Part shown: piece by piece, positions 5,926 through 38,701 of the stretch
Layout of the letters: every line of letters starts with the position of its first letter
Position numbering within the stretch: the first letter of the stretch is position 1
From: a virus
Length of the DNA: 42,704 nucleotides
Virus record (IMG/VR): IMGVR_UViG_3300005842_000023
Location: 1-42,704 of that record
Strand: one strand, 5' to 3'
Made by a program: the position numbers and the translations under genes
Notes under the pieces: model-generated
What the model was told of the DNA's origin: nothing
The model's database searches: none
The model's input: the letters and a program-made list of their open reading frames with translations, nothing else

Positions 5926-6265
5926 AATGCTCCTTTCGTCTAAACAGCGCGTTGAGGTCAAAGGCTTCGACGCCAGTGACGCCATGCAAAAGGCGCTCGA
6001 ACGCTACCCCGGTACGACGATTCAGGAGTGCTACTCCGGTTACAAGGAAACCCATTTTGTCCACACCGGCCAGGGTACGATTGAGATGGCGCCGGCCTGG
6101 ATTGATTATGAGATCCCGCCCCACTTCCCTTTTCTGCCAAAGGACAAGGGGCAGCCCGAGCCCCCCGAGCTATTTTCTTTCATGGGCGACGTCGTCCCTG
6201 CCCCCGAACCCGTGAAACCCACCCGCAAGCGCCTAGTCGGCGCCAAAGAGAGGACCCACGCATGA
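5912..6265 (+). CDS. Hypothetical protein upstream of RecT, 117 aa
   Basis: The start at 5912 (MLTYRMLLSSKQRVEVKGFD) was chosen over an upstream in-frame ATG because GAGGGGAGG precedes it at good spacing and the upstream stretch is a shadow of the preceding gene. The N-terminus has an alternating strand-helix pattern (VEVKGFDASDAMQKALERYP) that suggests a small alpha/beta domain; the C-terminus is proline-rich and basic. It overlaps recT by 4 nt. Confidence 0.65.
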   Translation: MLTYRMLLSSKQRVEVKGFDASDAMQKALERYPGTTIQECYSGYKETHFVHTGQGTIEMAPAWIDYEIPPHFPFLPKDKGQPEPPELFSFMGDVVPAPEPVKPTRKRLVGAKERTHA

Positions 6266-6945
6266 GCGAGCACGCGATTGATATTGCCCCGGCCGAAAAG
6301 CCCCCGATTGCCCAGCCTACCAAGTCCTCCCTGATGAAGGTCGGCGAGCGCGGGATTCAACTTTCCACGGTCGAGGAGATGCTGGTCTTTGCGGGGGCGG
6401 TCATCGATTCAGGACTGGCCCCCTATTCCTTCAAAAACAAACAGGCGGTCTTGGTCGCGATCCAATATGGGGCGGAGCTCGGGCTCCCTCCGATGGCTGC
6501 CCTCCAAAACATTGCCGTGATCAACGGGCGCCCCACGGTCTGGGGCGACGCCGTGCCCGGTATCGGCAATGCCTCAGGCCTAATTGAGGACTATAAGCAA
6601 GAGGAGATCGGCGAGCCGGATAAGGACTCGTGGGGATTTCGGGTCACGATCAAACGCAAGGGCCGCTCGGAGCCCATCGTCTCAACTTACACCGTCGCCC
6701 ACGCGAAGAGGGCGAAGCTGTGGGGAAAGACGGGGCGCGATGGGCAGCCCACTCCATGGATTACGTCGCCTGACCGGATGCTGCTCAATCGCGCGCGCAC
6801 CTTCGCTTATCGCGATGCCGTGCCGGAAAAGATGCGCGGTCTCGTCACGGCCGAAGAGGCGCGTGATTTGCCCATGAAGAACGTCACCCGTTCCCTCGAC
6901 GACATCGACCGCACACCCGATGAACTACGGCAAGATTCTCAATGA
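6262..6945 (+). CDS. recT: RecT-family single-strand annealing recombinase
   Basis: 227 residues. The core AVLVAIQYGAELGLPPMAAL followed by QNIAVINGRPTVWGDAVPGI is the diagnostic RecT/Bet-like segment (positions about 66-105), followed by the polar beta strands FRVTIKRKG and the TPWITSPDRMLLNRARTFAY helix seen in phage RecT proteins. RecT anneals complementary DNA strands during phage recombination and concatemer formation. AGAGAGG lies about 7 nt upstream. The gene overlaps the exonuclease gene by 26 nt, matching the usual RecE/RecT pair organisation. Confidence 0.9.
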   Translation: MSEHAIDIAPAEKPPIAQPTKSSLMKVGERGIQLSTVEEMLVFAGAVIDSGLAPYSFKNKQAVLVAIQYGAELGLPPMAALQNIAVINGRPTVWGDAVPGIGNASGLIEDYKQEEIGEPDKDSWGFRVTIKRKGRSEPIVSTYTVAHAKRAKLWGKTGRDGQPTPWITSPDRMLLNRARTFAYRDAVPEKMRGLVTAEEARDLPMKNVTRSLDDIDRTPDELRQDSQ

Positions 6946-7795
6946 GCCCTTCGGCGAATATCGAGCGACCGATTGCGTCGGCTCGCATCGCCTGGAGGAC
7001 CTCACGCCCTTTCCGATTCGCTATAAACTGCGGTATATAACGAAGGAGCTCCCGGAGCGGGCCGATACCCCCGCGTTCCGCTTCGGGCGGTTCTTTCACA
7101 CCTTCGCCCTGGAGGGCGACAAGGTGGTGTCCCAGCGCTACGTCATGGTCCCCAACTTTGCGCCTCCGCGGCCCACGGCAAGGCAACTGGAGGCCGAGAA
7201 GCCTTCGGAAAAGACCAGGGCCGTGATCAAGTGGTGGGAAGAGTTCGACGCCGAGGCGCAAGGCCGGGAAGAGGTCGACGAAAACGAGTGGTGGCAGGCG
7301 CTTAAAATGGTGGAGTCTATCCGCGCCAAGCCCGTCGTGGCCGAGCTCTTCAAGGCCGGAAACCCTGAGGTCACGTTCCGCCACAAAATGGCGAGTTTCG
7401 GAATTCAGTCCCGCATTGACTGGTTTGACGAAACGGCCACTTCTGCCCCCCTCATCGTGGACGTCAAAACGATCGAGAGCCTGGAGGCTTTCGATTTCCA
7501 GTTCTATAAATACAAGTATTACCGCCAGGCCGCCTTTTACCGCCTGGTCGTCTCCAAGGTCCTTGGCGTGCCCGCGGACCTGCTCCAGTTTGCGTTTGCG
7601 GTCGTCGAGTCGAATCCGCCTTACCTTTGCGCCCGGCGCGACCCTGACTTGCAAAGCCTGGAAATCGGCGCCGAGGAAGTCCTCTCCGACCTAGGCCTCC
7701 TGAAAAAGTGTTACGATGCAAACCACTGGCCCGGCTCCAGCGAAAACCCCGAACCTGTTTCCCTTCCCGAATGGAAGGCCGCCGCTGCCCTATGA
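6920..7795 (+). CDS. PD-(D/E)XK exonuclease, RecE/RecB-like partner of RecT
   Basis: 291 residues. Motifs: GRFFHTFALEG (56-66), E150 in NPEVTF, D167 in SRIDWFD, the catalytic D181-V-K183 in IVDVKT, and a closing YRQAAFY (201-207). This is the arrangement of the exodeoxyribonuclease VIII-type C-terminal nuclease (DUF3799/PD-DExK family). It should resect duplex ends to give the single strands on which RecT acts. The start ATG lies within the end of recT. Confidence 0.88.
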   Translation: MNYGKILNEPFGEYRATDCVGSHRLEDLTPFPIRYKLRYITKELPERADTPAFRFGRFFHTFALEGDKVVSQRYVMVPNFAPPRPTARQLEAEKPSEKTRAVIKWWEEFDAEAQGREEVDENEWWQALKMVESIRAKPVVAELFKAGNPEVTFRHKMASFGIQSRIDWFDETATSAPLIVDVKTIESLEAFDFQFYKYKYYRQAAFYRLVVSKVLGVPADLLQFAFAVVESNPPYLCARRDPDLQSLEIGAEEVLSDLGLLKKCYDANHWPGSSENPEPVSLPEWKAAAAL

Positions 7796-8379
7796 AGACC
7801 CTCGACCTCGATCTCAGGCTGTTCGGATCGCGTGAATATATAGCGAGTGATAATAACGCCCGGGCAACCTGGCTCCAGCTCCTCGCCTACTGTGCGGAGG
7901 AGGAGAACGGCGGCCGGATTGCCGGCGCCCTGAACTTTTCCGACACCCTATGGGGCTTGATGGGCGTTACGGTCGACGCCGTGAACCGGGCCAATTGGCT
8001 TATCACGTTCGAGGGCGATTCGGCGGTAGTGTTCGGCTATCCCGTCGAACAGGAGAGCGTTATCAAGGCAAAGCGAACAGGCGGAAAGAAGGGTGCCGAC
8101 GCTCGCTATGTGAATAACCCTAGGACTCCTACTAGGAGTCCTACTAGCACTCCTAGTGGGACTCCTACTGGGACTCCTACCGAAACCGATGAGCTCTGGC
8201 TGGCTGGACTCAAAAACGATGAAGCGTACCGTGGTATAAACATCGCGATCGAGCACGCGAAATGCGCCCGCTGGTGCCAGGCGAATAAAAAAGTCCTCAG
8301 TCGGCGGCGCTTCATCAACTGGCTTAACAAGGCGGAGCGACCCCTCAATGGCCCTCTAAACGGCGCCCTCATGCGATGA
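7792..8379 (+). CDS. Putative replication initiator, lambda O-like in layout
   Basis: 195 residues from the ATG at 7792, which overlaps the exonuclease stop (ATGA). Residues 1-100 look like a winged-helix domain (ATWLQLLAYCAEEENGGRIA...WLITFEGD); residues 110-131 are a T/P/S linker of repeating TPT units; residues 135-195 form a helical basic C-terminus. The linker is encoded by exact 12-bp repeats. The next gene is a helicase loader. A DNA-binding N-domain, an iteron-bearing linker and a following loader match the O-P arrangement of lambdoid phages. Direct similarity to O was not seen, so function is inferred from architecture. Confidence 0.65.
   Translation: MKTLDLDLRLFGSREYIASDNNARATWLQLLAYCAEEENGGRIAGALNFSDTLWGLMGVTVDAVNRANWLITFEGDSAVVFGYPVEQESVIKAKRTGGKKGADARYVNNPRTPTRSPTSTPSGTPTGTPTETDELWLAGLKNDEAYRGINIAIEHAKCARWCQANKKVLSRRRFINWLNKAERPLNGPLNGALMR
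8119..8182 (+). repeat. 12-bp iteron array, probable replication origin
   Basis: Five contiguous 12-bp units from 8123: GGACTCCTACTA, GGAGTCCTACTA, GCACTCCTAGTG, GGACTCCTACTG, GGACTCCTACCG. Units 1-2 also form the perfect inverted repeat GACTCCTA-C-TAGGAGTC (8124-8140). The repeats use ACT, CCT, AGT and AGG codons, rare in the surrounding genes, so the nucleotide pattern itself seems selected. No obvious AT-rich unwinding tract adjoins it. Confidence 0.65.
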
Positions 8380-9029
8380 GTGACCCCATCAACCCCTTTG
8401 CCGACTTGCGCGCGGAATGGATCGCCGCCGGCATTATCCCAGTCGGAGCCCCTCCTGTCATCGAGCCTACTGACGAGGAGCGCGCTGCAAAGATCAAAGC
8501 CGACATCGCCGCCCAACGCCTGGCGAAGTTTAAAGAGCAATGCCCAGCCCAATTCCGCGCGAAGATTCAACCGGAGCTTTTGCCAAAGCCCGAGGCCTGG
8601 AAAGAAGCGGACAAGTGGTTTGGCACCTTCCCCGGCCTTTGGCTTTGGTCCGCCGAAACCGGTCACGGGAAAACCCGAATGCTTTGGCGCAAATTCGGCG
8701 CCCTCCATGTGGAGCGTGGGCGAAGCGTCTTTAAAATTTCAGGACAAGCCCTCGCCGAAGAATACTTCCGTTACCACATGGAAGGAAACCCCCGCTCCTT
8801 CTATCGATGGGTAACCATGTATGACGTCGTGATGATCGACGACCTCGACAAGATCGACATGTCCGATCGTCGTGCCCCGCGCATGTGCCGAGAGCTCTTC
8901 GATGAGTTCTATTCTCGCAAGTCCGTTGTCCTCGTCACGGCGAACGAGCCCATCGAGTATTTTGAGAACACGATCGGCGGAAGCACTTCCCGCCGAATGC
9001 GGGAGGTCGTGACTGAAATTGAATTTTGA
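8376..9029 (+). CDS. DnaC/P-like AAA+ helicase loader
   Basis: 217 residues. Walker A variant ETGHGKT (94-100), Walker B VVMIDDLDK (151-159), sensor-1 LVTAN (186-190) and a likely arginine-finger/sensor-2 segment SRRMRE (205-210). Length and motif order fit the DnaC/IstB/phage loader family. It should deliver the host replicative helicase to the origin in the gene just upstream; no phage helicase or polymerase is present, so host machinery is probably used. It overlaps the initiator stop (ATGA). Confidence 0.85.
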   Translation: MSDPINPFADLRAEWIAAGIIPVGAPPVIEPTDEERAAKIKADIAAQRLAKFKEQCPAQFRAKIQPELLPKPEAWKEADKWFGTFPGLWLWSAETGHGKTRMLWRKFGALHVERGRSVFKISGQALAEEYFRYHMEGNPRSFYRWVTMYDVVMIDDLDKIDMSDRRAPRMCRELFDEFYSRKSVVLVTANEPIEYFENTIGGSTSRRMREVVTEIEF

Positions 9030-9036
9030 CTTGCCT

Positions 9037-9062
9037 GTTATGCGCCACATGCGCCACATAAC
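9037..9062. promoter_or_regulatory. Tandem 9-bp repeat within an inverted repeat
   Basis: TGCGCCACA occurs twice in tandem (9041-9049, 9050-9058), flanked by GTTATG (9037-9042) and CATAAC (9057-9062). It fills most of the gap before the gene at 9089 and may be an operator. Confidence 0.35.
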
Positions 9063-9088
9063 ACCTAATCAACGGGAGACCCCTTCTA

Positions 9089-9553
9089 ATGAGTAGTAGC
9101 GAGCAAACAGAAAAGAATCTCACTGAGGTTTTCAAAGCGGCCAACGAAGCGCGCGAGCGCGATTTCGAACGCGGCCAGGCGGCACTTTTGCGGCGCGCCA
9201 TTGTTGCGGAAACAGAACTCGCGGCCTACAAGAAGCGATCCGAAATGAAGCCCGCTTTTATTCTCGCCATCAGCCGCTCCCAGCAAATGGCCCTCGTGTC
9301 GTTGATCGGTGAATACATGAGAACGAAAGACGTGCCTCAGGAGTTTGTGGATTGCTCTACGAATCCGCCGACGCCCACGAACACAGGCAACCTCCTTACT
9401 CTCGTCATGACTGCTCCCACGAGCGTTGGGGTCTTGGTAGACGAACTCGTTTACTCCCTGGAAAAGGAAAGTTTGATCGTGAACCTGGTTCAGGCTCAAC
9501 GCGACCAAGCTTGGGAGCAACTCAAGGCCGCCGGCATCACGCCGAAGCTCTAG
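9089..9553 (+). CDS. Hypothetical protein, last gene of the early operon
   Basis: 154 residues, mostly helical, with a charged N-terminus (VFKAANEARERDFERGQAAL) and a hydrophobic LLTLVMTAPTSVGVLVDELV segment. GGGAG lies 13 nt before the ATG. No family recognised. Its TAG overlaps the TAG of the convergent late gene (9550-9553) inside the palindrome GCTCTAGAGC. Confidence 0.65.
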   Translation: MSSSEQTEKNLTEVFKAANEARERDFERGQAALLRRAIVAETELAAYKKRSEMKPAFILAISRSQQMALVSLIGEYMRTKDVPQEFVDCSTNPPTPTNTGNLLTLVMTAPTSVGVLVDELVYSLEKESLIVNLVQAQRDQAWEQLKAAGITPKL

Positions 9554-26230: not shown

Positions 26231-28276
26231 TCAGGTTGAGCAAAGCAGTTTGTACGCAGTGCCGTTAATTTCGATTTGCTGGTAGCCTGTTGCTGCGGGC
26301 GCGCCGCCAACATAGGAGCCAAATTTCACAGGAACAGCAGTGCCCCCCGATGGGTTGCCAGTGGTGAGTGATGCCCTAATAGTGAGAGCACTCGTCGAAG
26401 CCGCCACGCTGAGGGCGCTCACCCCATTCGCTCGGTCGAAAAGCTCGAACGCATCGCTACCCAATGAAATCCCAGTACCGAGATTCCATTTTGAAGAAGC
26501 TCCGCGAGCCCAGGTGACGTTCATCCCTGTGTTAGCGGTGCCGGTCGACGCATTGAGATAGAGGCCGCCACCGCCAGCCGGCACCTGTACTTGGACACCG
26601 GCCAGGGCGCCGCTCGCGATCAACAGACTCGGCAAAGTGATGTTGCCTACAAATGCCGCAAGGCCCGATACCGGCGTGAAGGATAAAACGCTTAGCGAGT
26701 TCGCGCGGTCGTAGAGTTCGAACGCATCCGAGCCGATCGAAATTCCGGTGCCGATACTCCATTTATTCGAGGCCCCCCTCTGGAAAATGATACTTCCGCC
26801 CGTGTTTGCTGTTCCTGTGCTCGCGTTGAGAGTAAGCATCGTGCCGCCGGCCGGAATGGAAAACAGGCCGGCGCCCGCAACCGCCAAGGGAATCGAGGCA
26901 TCTGCCGCCTGCCCAAGCCCAAGCCGCGTCCACTGGGGCGTGGCCGTAGTGCGAATATCCTGAATCGTATTGAGCGAACCACTACCGAGCGAAAGGGACG
27001 TGCCTGCCGTGATCTCCTCGACCGCGCCCGAGCCGGCCGTCGTCCGCCCGAGAATGCGAGATGTATTCATCGTGAACCCCGTCACAGCCGGCGAAGCAGA
27101 GGAGGTCACGTTGCCGCTCGCGTCGTTCACGAGGAAGCCCGCCGTGGTATAAGTGGGGAGCTGGAAGAGCCCGTTTCGAAGCGTGAGCCACGTGGCGATT
27201 GTCGTTGACCCGTTCGAAACGCCGGAGAACTGCCAGTAAACCCCGTTGTTCGTTCCGCTCCAATTGCCATCGGCAAACACCCGGAAAACAAAGTTGTTAA
27301 TATGATTCGTTCCATCATATCCAACCGCCCCGACGCGTATAAATGGCGCCCCGTCTGTGGTCACGGAGAGCGAGCTGCGCGTCCCTCCGATCCATCGCCC
27401 GAAAAGTGAAAGACCCGGTTGGGCATTTCCGATATTAATGCCCTCGACGCCGGACGCGCCGCCAAGAATGAGCCCCGTACGAGCTGGAAGAAACGGAGCG
27501 GGAAGGGCGCCACTTGCGGGGCTTTTATCTAACGTCACCCAATTATTCGTTTTATCGAAAGTGAAGTTTGCGACCGCGCCGAAAGCTCCGATGTCATTGA
27601 ATTGAACTTGGGTATTACTTCCTCCTGGAGTCGTGAGGGCCGTGTAGCTAAACCCGCCGCTCCCGTCATTCGTGAGCGCCCCGGCGGCATTCGCTAAGGC
27701 TGAGATAGCAGTAAGTTTCGCGTTGAGCGGCTGATAGACCGTTGAGAGATCCGGAATATCTGCTGCCACCAAAGCGCGAAAAGTAGGAGCCGCCACGCCG
27801 CCACTGCCTGGGCCAGCGAAGACGAGATTGGCCGCCTGGGTGGCGAGAGTGACAGCCAGGGTGCCGGAAGTTGTGACAGGCGAACCCGCCACGCTCAGAA
27901 ACGACGGAACGCTCAGCCCGACACTCGTGACTGTGCCCGTCGCGGCGGCAACCCAGGAATAAACGCCGCTGCCGTCGTTTGTCAGGACCCCAGCCCCATC
28001 GGCCAGGGCAGCAAAAGCCGTGAGCTTAGACGAGAGCGGCTGATAGACTCCGGACAAATCCGGGATGTCCGCGGCGACCAGCGCACGAAATGCAGGATCT
28101 GCCGGGGCGCCCGAAGTAGGCCCAGCCCAGACGAGGTTCGCCGCTTGCGCCACAAGCGCCAACGCCAAGACCCCGGCCGTCGTGACAGGGCTTCCCGTGA
28201 CGGCCAAGATGGAGCTTGGGGCGGTGAGCCCCACGCTCGTCACTCCACTAGTCCCACCTAATTTAAAGAGAGGCAT
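26231..28276 (-). CDS. Long tail fibre with duplicated modules, 681 aa
   Basis: Residues 12-115 and 116-219 are two copies of a 104-residue module (VTSVGL...PVTT, AANLV(W/F)AGP, FRALVAADIPDLS, YQPL, LTNDGSG). Further on, KWSIGTGISIGSDAFELYDR and KWNLGTGISLGSDAFELFDR mark a second duplicated module of about 80 residues. This modular S/T/G/A-rich make-up is typical of trimeric phage fibres. The ATG follows the capsid-gene terminator within 5 nt and has no Shine-Dalgarno sequence, so expression should depend on read-through. Confidence 0.75.
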   Translation of the reverse strand: MPLFKLGGTSGVTSVGLTAPSSILAVTGSPVTTAGVLALALVAQAANLVWAGPTSGAPADPAFRALVAADIPDLSGVYQPLSSKLTAFAALADGAGVLTNDGSGVYSWVAAATGTVTSVGLSVPSFLSVAGSPVTTSGTLAVTLATQAANLVFAGPGSGGVAAPTFRALVAADIPDLSTVYQPLNAKLTAISALANAAGALTNDGSGGFSYTALTTPGGSNTQVQFNDIGAFGAVANFTFDKTNNWVTLDKSPASGALPAPFLPARTGLILGGASGVEGINIGNAQPGLSLFGRWIGGTRSSLSVTTDGAPFIRVGAVGYDGTNHINNFVFRVFADGNWSGTNNGVYWQFSGVSNGSTTIATWLTLRNGLFQLPTYTTAGFLVNDASGNVTSSASPAVTGFTMNTSRILGRTTAGSGAVEEITAGTSLSLGSGSLNTIQDIRTTATPQWTRLGLGQAADASIPLAVAGAGLFSIPAGGTMLTLNASTGTANTGGSIIFQRGASNKWSIGTGISIGSDAFELYDRANSLSVLSFTPVSGLAAFVGNITLPSLLIASGALAGVQVQVPAGGGGLYLNASTGTANTGMNVTWARGASSKWNLGTGISLGSDAFELFDRANGVSALSVAASTSALTIRASLTTGNPSGGTAVPVKFGSYVGGAPAATGYQQIEINGTAYKLLCST

Positions 28277-38068: not shown

Positions 38069-38701
38069 TTAAAAGGGCAAATAATTCTGGCTCTCTTTAT
38101 TGTTCCAGCACCAAGCCGGATAAACGAGTTCCCGGCCGGCGTCGGCGGCATCAATCACGTCTCGCGGCATGTTCACTTTTGCTTTCAGGCCACAGCCGCA
38201 GGCCGCACAAATTTCGAGCCCACCTATTTGGCGCCGCGCGGGGATCGCCGCATTGATCAAATGGTAGAGGGTGGTGCAACCGGCGCAGCCCTCGGCCTTC
38301 ATATTGAGGGGACACGAGAGGCAAATGTTCGCGCGCCGGGTGAGTTCGGTCTCGGCGACCATTTCGCCGTGGCCCTTCACGAACTCGATAAACCCCTTCG
38401 TAAACCCAACCGCCATTTCCGAATCGAGGTTGCGGGTGTAGTCGCGCTTGATCGGCCGCCAGTCCTCGCCCTTGTTGGGCCGGCAGTGCTCCGGGCCAAT
38501 GCGGTCGCAAATTTGCTCGTGGATGTCGTCCAGGGCTTCGTCGGCGGTCGCGCGCGGGAGTTCCCGGTAGCGGCGATGCTCGGCGATTTCCTCCGCCATC
38601 TCCTTTAGGCCCTGTTCGCCTGTGAACCATTTGCGGGTTTCCTTCTGGAAATAGATCCAACCGCCGGGGGGTTGTTGACTGGGGATTTTAAGAAACGCCA
38701 T
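38069..38701 (-). CDS. Cysteine-rich metal-binding protein, 210 aa
   Basis: Ten cysteines, most in the pattern CLSC (127-130), CAGC (139-142), CAACGC (165-170) and PAWCW (196-199). This resembles the CxxC...CxxCGC...CP...W metal-binding modules that accompany phage and bacterial glycosyltransferases (DUF6171-like). The N-terminal half (residues 10-110) is helical and of unknown fold. Its gene overlaps the XRE gene by 14 nt and precedes three glycosyltransferase genes, so it may act in the same glycan pathway. Confidence 0.65.
   Translation of the reverse strand: MAFLKIPSQQPPGGWIYFQKETRKWFTGEQGLKEMAEEIAEHRRYRELPRATADEALDDIHEQICDRIGPEHCRPNKGEDWRPIKRDYTRNLDSEMAVGFTKGFIEFVKGHGEMVAETELTRRANICLSCPLNMKAEGCAGCTTLYHLINAAIPARRQIGGLEICAACGCGLKAKVNMPRDVIDAADAGRELVYPAWCWNNKESQNYLPF

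Follow-up and report, generated by a model that had tools for sequence, protein, structure and literature searches.

An array of five near-palindromic 12-bp repeats within a putative replication initiator gene very probably constitutes the iteron array of a lambda-type phage origin. The DNA analysed here (the window), 42,704 bp long, makes up an entire, complete IMG/VR virus record, and relatives of the initiator carry DNA repeats at the same position, between the same N-terminal domain and the remainder of the protein, at a pitch of 11-12 bp and in all three reading frames. Intragenic iteron origins are already known from a few phage groups, with that of lambda being the textbook case. What is new here is an initiator family in which no similarity to lambda O can be detected, a short pitch of 11-12 bp, and turnover of the iteron word through all frames while the pitch stays constant. 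A literature search, with most subscription journals outside its coverage, returned no description of this initiator family or of frame-shifted iterons.

The array, its gene and its neighbours

Tandem Repeats Finder places the array at 8120-8180 (period 12, 5.1 copies, score 87), within the open reading frame 7792-8379, and ranks it as the best-scoring tandem repeat of the whole window. The features of this region are as follows.

6262-6945, plus strand: RecT-like annealing protein gene, in the same early gene cluster as the initiator
6920-7795, plus strand: ExoVIII-type exonuclease gene, also in this early gene cluster
7792-8379, plus strand: putative replication initiator gene, 195 aa (open reading frame; weak PHROG match)
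7792-8112, plus strand: N-terminal winged-helix domain, residues 1-107, putatively iteron-binding (AlphaFold)
8113-8181, plus strand: disordered linker, about residues 108-130, encoded by the iteron array, ...PRTPTRSPTSTPSGTPTGTPT (AlphaFold; codon and repeat statistics)
8121-8131, no strand assigned: iteron 1, TAGGACTCCTA, perfect 11-bp dyad
8133-8143, no strand assigned: iteron 2, TAGGAGTCCTA, perfect 11-bp dyad
8145-8155, no strand assigned: iteron 3, TAGCACTCCTA, dyad with one mismatch
8157-8167, no strand assigned: iteron 4, TGGGACTCCTA, dyad with one mismatch
8169-8179, no strand assigned: iteron 5, TGGGACTCCTA, dyad with one mismatch
8182-8334, plus strand: C-terminal three-helix domain, about residues 131-181 (AlphaFold, alignment)
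8376-9029, plus strand: DnaC/IstB-like AAA+ helicase-loader gene (Pfam, PHROG)

The units, which together span 8121-8180, follow the pattern TAGGA-N-TCCTA plus one base and are arranged as TAGGACTCCTA-C, TAGGAGTCCTA-C, TAGCACTCCTA-G, TGGGACTCCTA-C and TGGGACTCCTA, with starts at 8121, 8133, 8145, 8157 and 8169. Each is a 5-1-5 dyad with zero or one mismatch. This agrees with an earlier note on this DNA, which had described five contiguous 12-bp repeats. The same note had reported a 17-bp inverted repeat; the inverted repeat is real but its length was understated, as iterons 1 and 2 together form a perfect palindrome of 23 bp with 11-nt arms (8121-8131 and 8133-8143). No copy of the motif was found outside 8121-8180 in the whole window, and none at a promoter; a search at the array itself found neither a terminator nor a promoter. 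Direct repeats in two copies also occur in late-region open reading frames of the window, one of 24 bp at 38442-38491 and one of 21 bp at 27823-27863.

Codon usage in the array departs from the G/C-ending codons of its neighbourhood, as had been claimed. ACT accounts for 13.5% of Thr codons phage-wide but for seven of the eight in the array linker, and CCT accounts for 12.1% of Pro codons phage-wide but for all six in the linker. The GC3 of the linker is 6/22, against an expected 16.3, and its codon log-probability lies 5.8 SD below the mean when the phage's own codon usage serves as the reference. The array contains 10 dyads, compared with 1.5 in synonymous resamples, and its 12-bp periodicity is 43/54, compared with 32; none of 20,000 such resamples equalled it in codon bias, dyad count or 12-bp periodicity. 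When a sliding test for repetition beyond that of the peptide was run along the initiator gene, the array was the sole peak.

AlphaFold, run on an alignment of 35 relatives, predicts a winged-helix N-domain (pLDDT above 90 for most residues; helices at 51-56 and 61-65, wing strands at 71-74 and 77-80), a disordered linker over the same stretch as the array (pLDDT below 50 at residues 108-129), and a small C-domain, thus bearing out the proposal that the repeats encode a linker between two domains. The C-domain type of the window is common only to some relatives (L014, L034, L037, L055 and L062). The window protein has a weak, short match to PHROG 2447 (replication initiation protein; E 0.009), and PHROG 3926, which has the same annotation, was matched by 7 of 35 family members (best 1e-4). 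Searches of Pfam, NCBIfam and PDB sequences with the N-domain gave no match, and the family has no significant match to any solved initiator.

The N-domain of the window is divergent, with a best identity of 45% and a long branch whose position in the tree is unsure. It lacks the WKDRQWQQ motif that is otherwise conserved in the family. Residues 48-58 (about 7933-7965), which adjoin the predicted recognition helix, carry FSDTLWGLM where nearly all relatives have WKDRQWQQ, and this replacement may reflect an altered DNA specificity of the window initiator.

The early genes are ordered RecT, ExoVIII, initiator and DnaC/IstB-like gene. The last of these begins at 8376 and overlaps the initiator gene by 4 bp (ATGA), and both open reading frames are intact. 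It matches Pfam IstB_IS21 (E 6.4e-6, above the gathering cut-off) and the DnaC-like helicase loader family PHROG 3277 (E 1.6e-4), which is consistent with the earlier reading of a helicase loader gene after the initiator. The order recurs in relatives, in which the next recognisable gene encodes a DnaC-like loader, DnaB or a primase/helicase. A search for relatives with the loader gene as bait returned none. The loader gene is followed by a short non-coding stretch (9030-9137) with a tandem ATGCGCCAC at 9040-9059; beside this repeat, 9078-9137 ranks with the 60-bp segments of lowest stability in the vicinity of the array.

Conservation of DNA words and pitch across reading frames

All relatives were found with the N-domain alone. 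A tblastn search revealed three Akkermansia phages with related initiators, and an N-domain alignment search then added 80 loci in IMG/VR and 3 in genomes, giving a family of about 90 phage loci that come mainly from environmental and Akkermansia phages. The lone match of a single-protein search of viral contigs (L002) was rejected as spurious; detecting relatives there required the alignment. The N-domain is carried by 12 of 288 genomes from the phylum of an Akkermansia genome, and the host of the window phage is probably a member of the Verrucomicrobiota. One contig labelled as a Clostridiales MAG (L086) encodes an initiator that falls within the Akkermansia clade. This MAG is the only one of 299 genomes from its phylum with the N-domain, and because such an initiator is absent from the other 298, the contig is probably misbinned or mislabelled.

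In nearly every relative, the segment after the N-domain is repetitive, although the peptides differ (TPTR, KDSL, EGVL, LEAQLEA, NPSKTQAQPKQ, RETQ, SSASS and VETDIGT). Comparison with synonymous resamples revealed more DNA repetition than is expected from peptide and codon usage in the linkers of 34 of 36 non-redundant members, whereas the control regions were positive in the same test in 1/36 N-domains, 4/34 C-domains and 10/144 neighbouring genes. Newly found linkers from sampled genomes served as a further check. Among the 11 that were analysed, a twelfth being truncated, several belong to close Akkermansia relatives and so not all are independent; seven exceeded the synonymous null (p<0.05) and nine had their strongest lag at 11, 12, 23 or 24. 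The search for conserved repeats in relatives that the earlier note had proposed yielded about 90 loci with DNA repeats in the same linker.

Several unit classes can be distinguished (AGGANTCCT, GCTTNAAGC, ACCCAAGC, AACCCAAC/AAA, and GGAACC/ACGT in Akkermansia), and these follow the N-domain tree only in part. The 11-mer of iteron 3, TAGCACTCCTA, is also present in relative L012. Two relatives with very similar N-domains, L056 and L028, have iterons of different classes (GCTTGAAGC and AACCCAAGC, respectively), which suggests that a short core such as CAAGC may be the only part that is read. A distant relative (L134, E 5e-14) has a long ATGCAAATGCA-type array in its linker, again with a pitch of 11-12 bp.

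The units vary among relatives, but nearly all arrays keep a pitch of 11 or 12 bp. When the autocorrelation of 37 linkers was pooled, peaks appeared only at 11, 12 and 22-25 bp, with lag 11 reaching 14 times the null. Lag 12 could partly reflect four-residue peptide repeats, but lag 11 is impossible from a peptide repeat, and arrays with 11-bp spacing, such as those of L028 and L029, cycle through all three frames. Linker 9-mers common to pairs of relatives occur off-frame in 105 and 133 pairs versus 205 in-frame, whereas the corresponding values for the N-domain are 14 and 5 versus 450. The reading frame of the window's unit word is 0 in the window itself (TRTP), 1 in the KDSL/KESL types and 2 in the EGVL types, and these three lineages lie far apart on the N-domain tree, on which the window branch is long and its place unsure. 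The use of one unit word in three reading frames argues strongly for a function at the DNA level.

When all viral contigs were scanned at the DNA level, with no protein information, for two AGGANTCCT units in a row (AGGANTCCTNNNAGGANTCCT), 31 stretches were returned, 10 of them in initiator-family linkers. Five contigs had two or more overlapping matches, and in each of them the matches lie in such a linker; we estimate that chance, given 16 fixed bases and the size of the collection, would yield about as many as the other 21 single matches. The opposite pattern, in which the peptide is kept while codons are scrambled and the 12-bp period is lost, had been named in the earlier note as grounds for refutation and was also checked. 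Relatives instead change peptide and frame and keep DNA words and the 11-12 bp pitch, which, together with the synonymous resamples, supports the claim that the DNA sequence is conserved beyond the peptide.

Melting tract, known systems and alternative explanations

The repeats are followed in 34 of 35 relatives by a purine-rich tract (32-36 of 36 purines) whose stability is among the lowest along the gene (mean stability z 2.56). This tract, of the GGAAAGGAAAGG type, encodes ERKGKE. The window has no comparable purine tract, either in the gene (at most 28 of 36 purines) or elsewhere. Its array is itself a low-stability segment (8107-8166, z 2.33) and might therefore melt, so one could speculate that the window origin opens at the array; further low-stability segments are found at 7463-7522 and 9078-9137. 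Given that both the purine tract and the WKDRQWQQ motif are absent, the window may have diverged in origin opening, or its origin may be impaired. GC skew of the window gave no support for any origin position, as the coding strand dominates the signal.

In lambda, the iterons are imperfect inverted repeats of 19 bp that lie midway along gene O and adjoin an AT-rich region (PMC7466680). Lambda O served as a positive control for our repeat test, which marked codons 97-160, the site of the four mapped iterons; these start in frames 0, 2, 2 and 1. Like the family, lambda O/ori-lambda combines a DNA-binding N-terminal part with mid-gene iterons in several frames, each an imperfect inverted repeat. 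It shares with the relatives an A-rich melting tract beside the iterons, which by inspection is A/purine-rich on the same strand, and with the window an overlapping helicase-loader gene downstream. In contrast to the 11-12 bp pitch of the family, lambda iterons of 18-19 bp are spaced at 20-24 bp, and the window array, unlike that of lambda, has no adjacent melting tract. The proteins have no detectable sequence homology: hhalign gave a probability of 0.1%, and TIGR01610 (phage_O_Nterm) matched lambda O (5e-39) but neither the window nor two relatives.

Rep of Lactococcus phage TP901-1, put through the same test, also showed a mid-gene repeat peak (codons 73-124); like the family it has mid-gene DNA repeats beyond the peptide, but there is no detectable protein similarity. 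Plasmid initiators of the RepA_N type (PDB 4PT7, 4PQL, 5KBJ and 4PTA), whose N-domains are winged helices, ranked top when the predicted winged-helix N-domain was compared with known folds. These matches are weak (E 0.26 or worse; Z 3.4-4.0, on a par with CRP-type winged helices) and are no proof of kinship, and no sequence match to these initiators was found. Two features of the lambda-type class are present in the window, namely DNA-constrained repeats inside a putative initiator gene and a helicase loader directly downstream, while the third, an easily melted tract beside the iterons, is absent there and present in nearly all relatives. We therefore assign the family to the lambda-type class of intragenic origins, and for the window propose only that it would work like one. 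The description of the origin as lambda-like holds for architecture, as judged from the relatives, the gene order and the behaviour of lambda O and TP901-1 in the same test, but does not extend to detectable sequence homology, to pitch or, in the window, to a purine tract.

The linker peptide is repetitive and predicted to be disordered, and tandem DNA repeats are able to expand by slippage, so the repeats could merely encode a useful low-complexity Thr/Pro linker. However, DNA words recur among relatives in different frames and encode different peptides there, 11-bp arrays yield no repeating peptide, and the differences between units in the window are almost all nonsynonymous, most of them affecting the dyad centre, the spacer or a single arm base. 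A slippage or peptide-only origin of the repeats is contradicted by the cross-frame conservation, and we give it next to no credence. The inverted repeats could alternatively work by pairing, forming a hairpin or cruciform in mRNA or single-stranded DNA that serves, for instance, as a single-strand origin or in translational control, and as single-stranded DNA the array does fold far better than shuffles (z -4.4). Yet 18 of 37 linkers fold no better than z -2, the direct-repeat AACCCAAGC class has no hairpin potential, and it is the pitch and the repeats that are conserved rather than the pairing. A hairpin was thus rejected as a conserved family feature because it is not universal among the 37 linkers, and this explanation is highly improbable.

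Two further alternatives draw on the lack of the relatives' melting tract in the window. The array could bind the initiator in a regulatory or titration role (autoregulation, copy control or partition) while replication starts elsewhere, for which the low-stability segments at 7463-7522 and 9078-9137 would be available. This is unlikely: in relatives the gene is at its least stable directly after the array and a gene for a helicase or loader comes next, which is the lambda arrangement (PMC7466680), and the motif is found in the linker alone and at no promoter. Alternatively, the iterons could be a relic of a lambda-type ancestor that has lost its melting tract, the phage now initiating in another way, which would also suit the long branch of the window N-domain. 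All five units nevertheless keep their dyads and an exact 12-bp spacing, the codon bias is still extreme, the initiator and loader reading frames are intact, and the low-stability array could itself melt, making a relic more doubtful still.

Proposed mechanism and implications

The preferred reading, an iteron array of a lambda-type origin, would make the window the carrier of a complete, active origin at which the initiator binds the array, DNA is unwound and helicase is loaded. A mechanism is proposed where the winged-helix N-domain binds the 12-bp units, with protomers about one helical turn apart, and the initiator-array complex melts nearby DNA. The C-domain would then recruit the DnaC/IstB-like loader encoded immediately downstream, and the loader would deliver the host's DnaB helicase. 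The linker peptide would be a flexible by-product of the iteron DNA.

More tentatively, the family could represent a separate initiator-origin lineage of Verrucomicrobiota phages, characterised by one protomer per helical turn, a fixed intragenic pitch of 11-12 bp and an iteron word that turns over through three frames; we regard this as a reasonable possibility that falls somewhat short of an even chance. If it is correct, the origin rather than the protein dictates the linker sequence. With one 12-bp word in three lineages and three frames, a family found in about 90 phage loci provides an unusually clean case for selection at the DNA level. Its many natural initiator/iteron pairs are a ready set for studying origin recognition by a winged-helix initiator, and are candidate replicons for Akkermansia and other Verrucomicrobiota.
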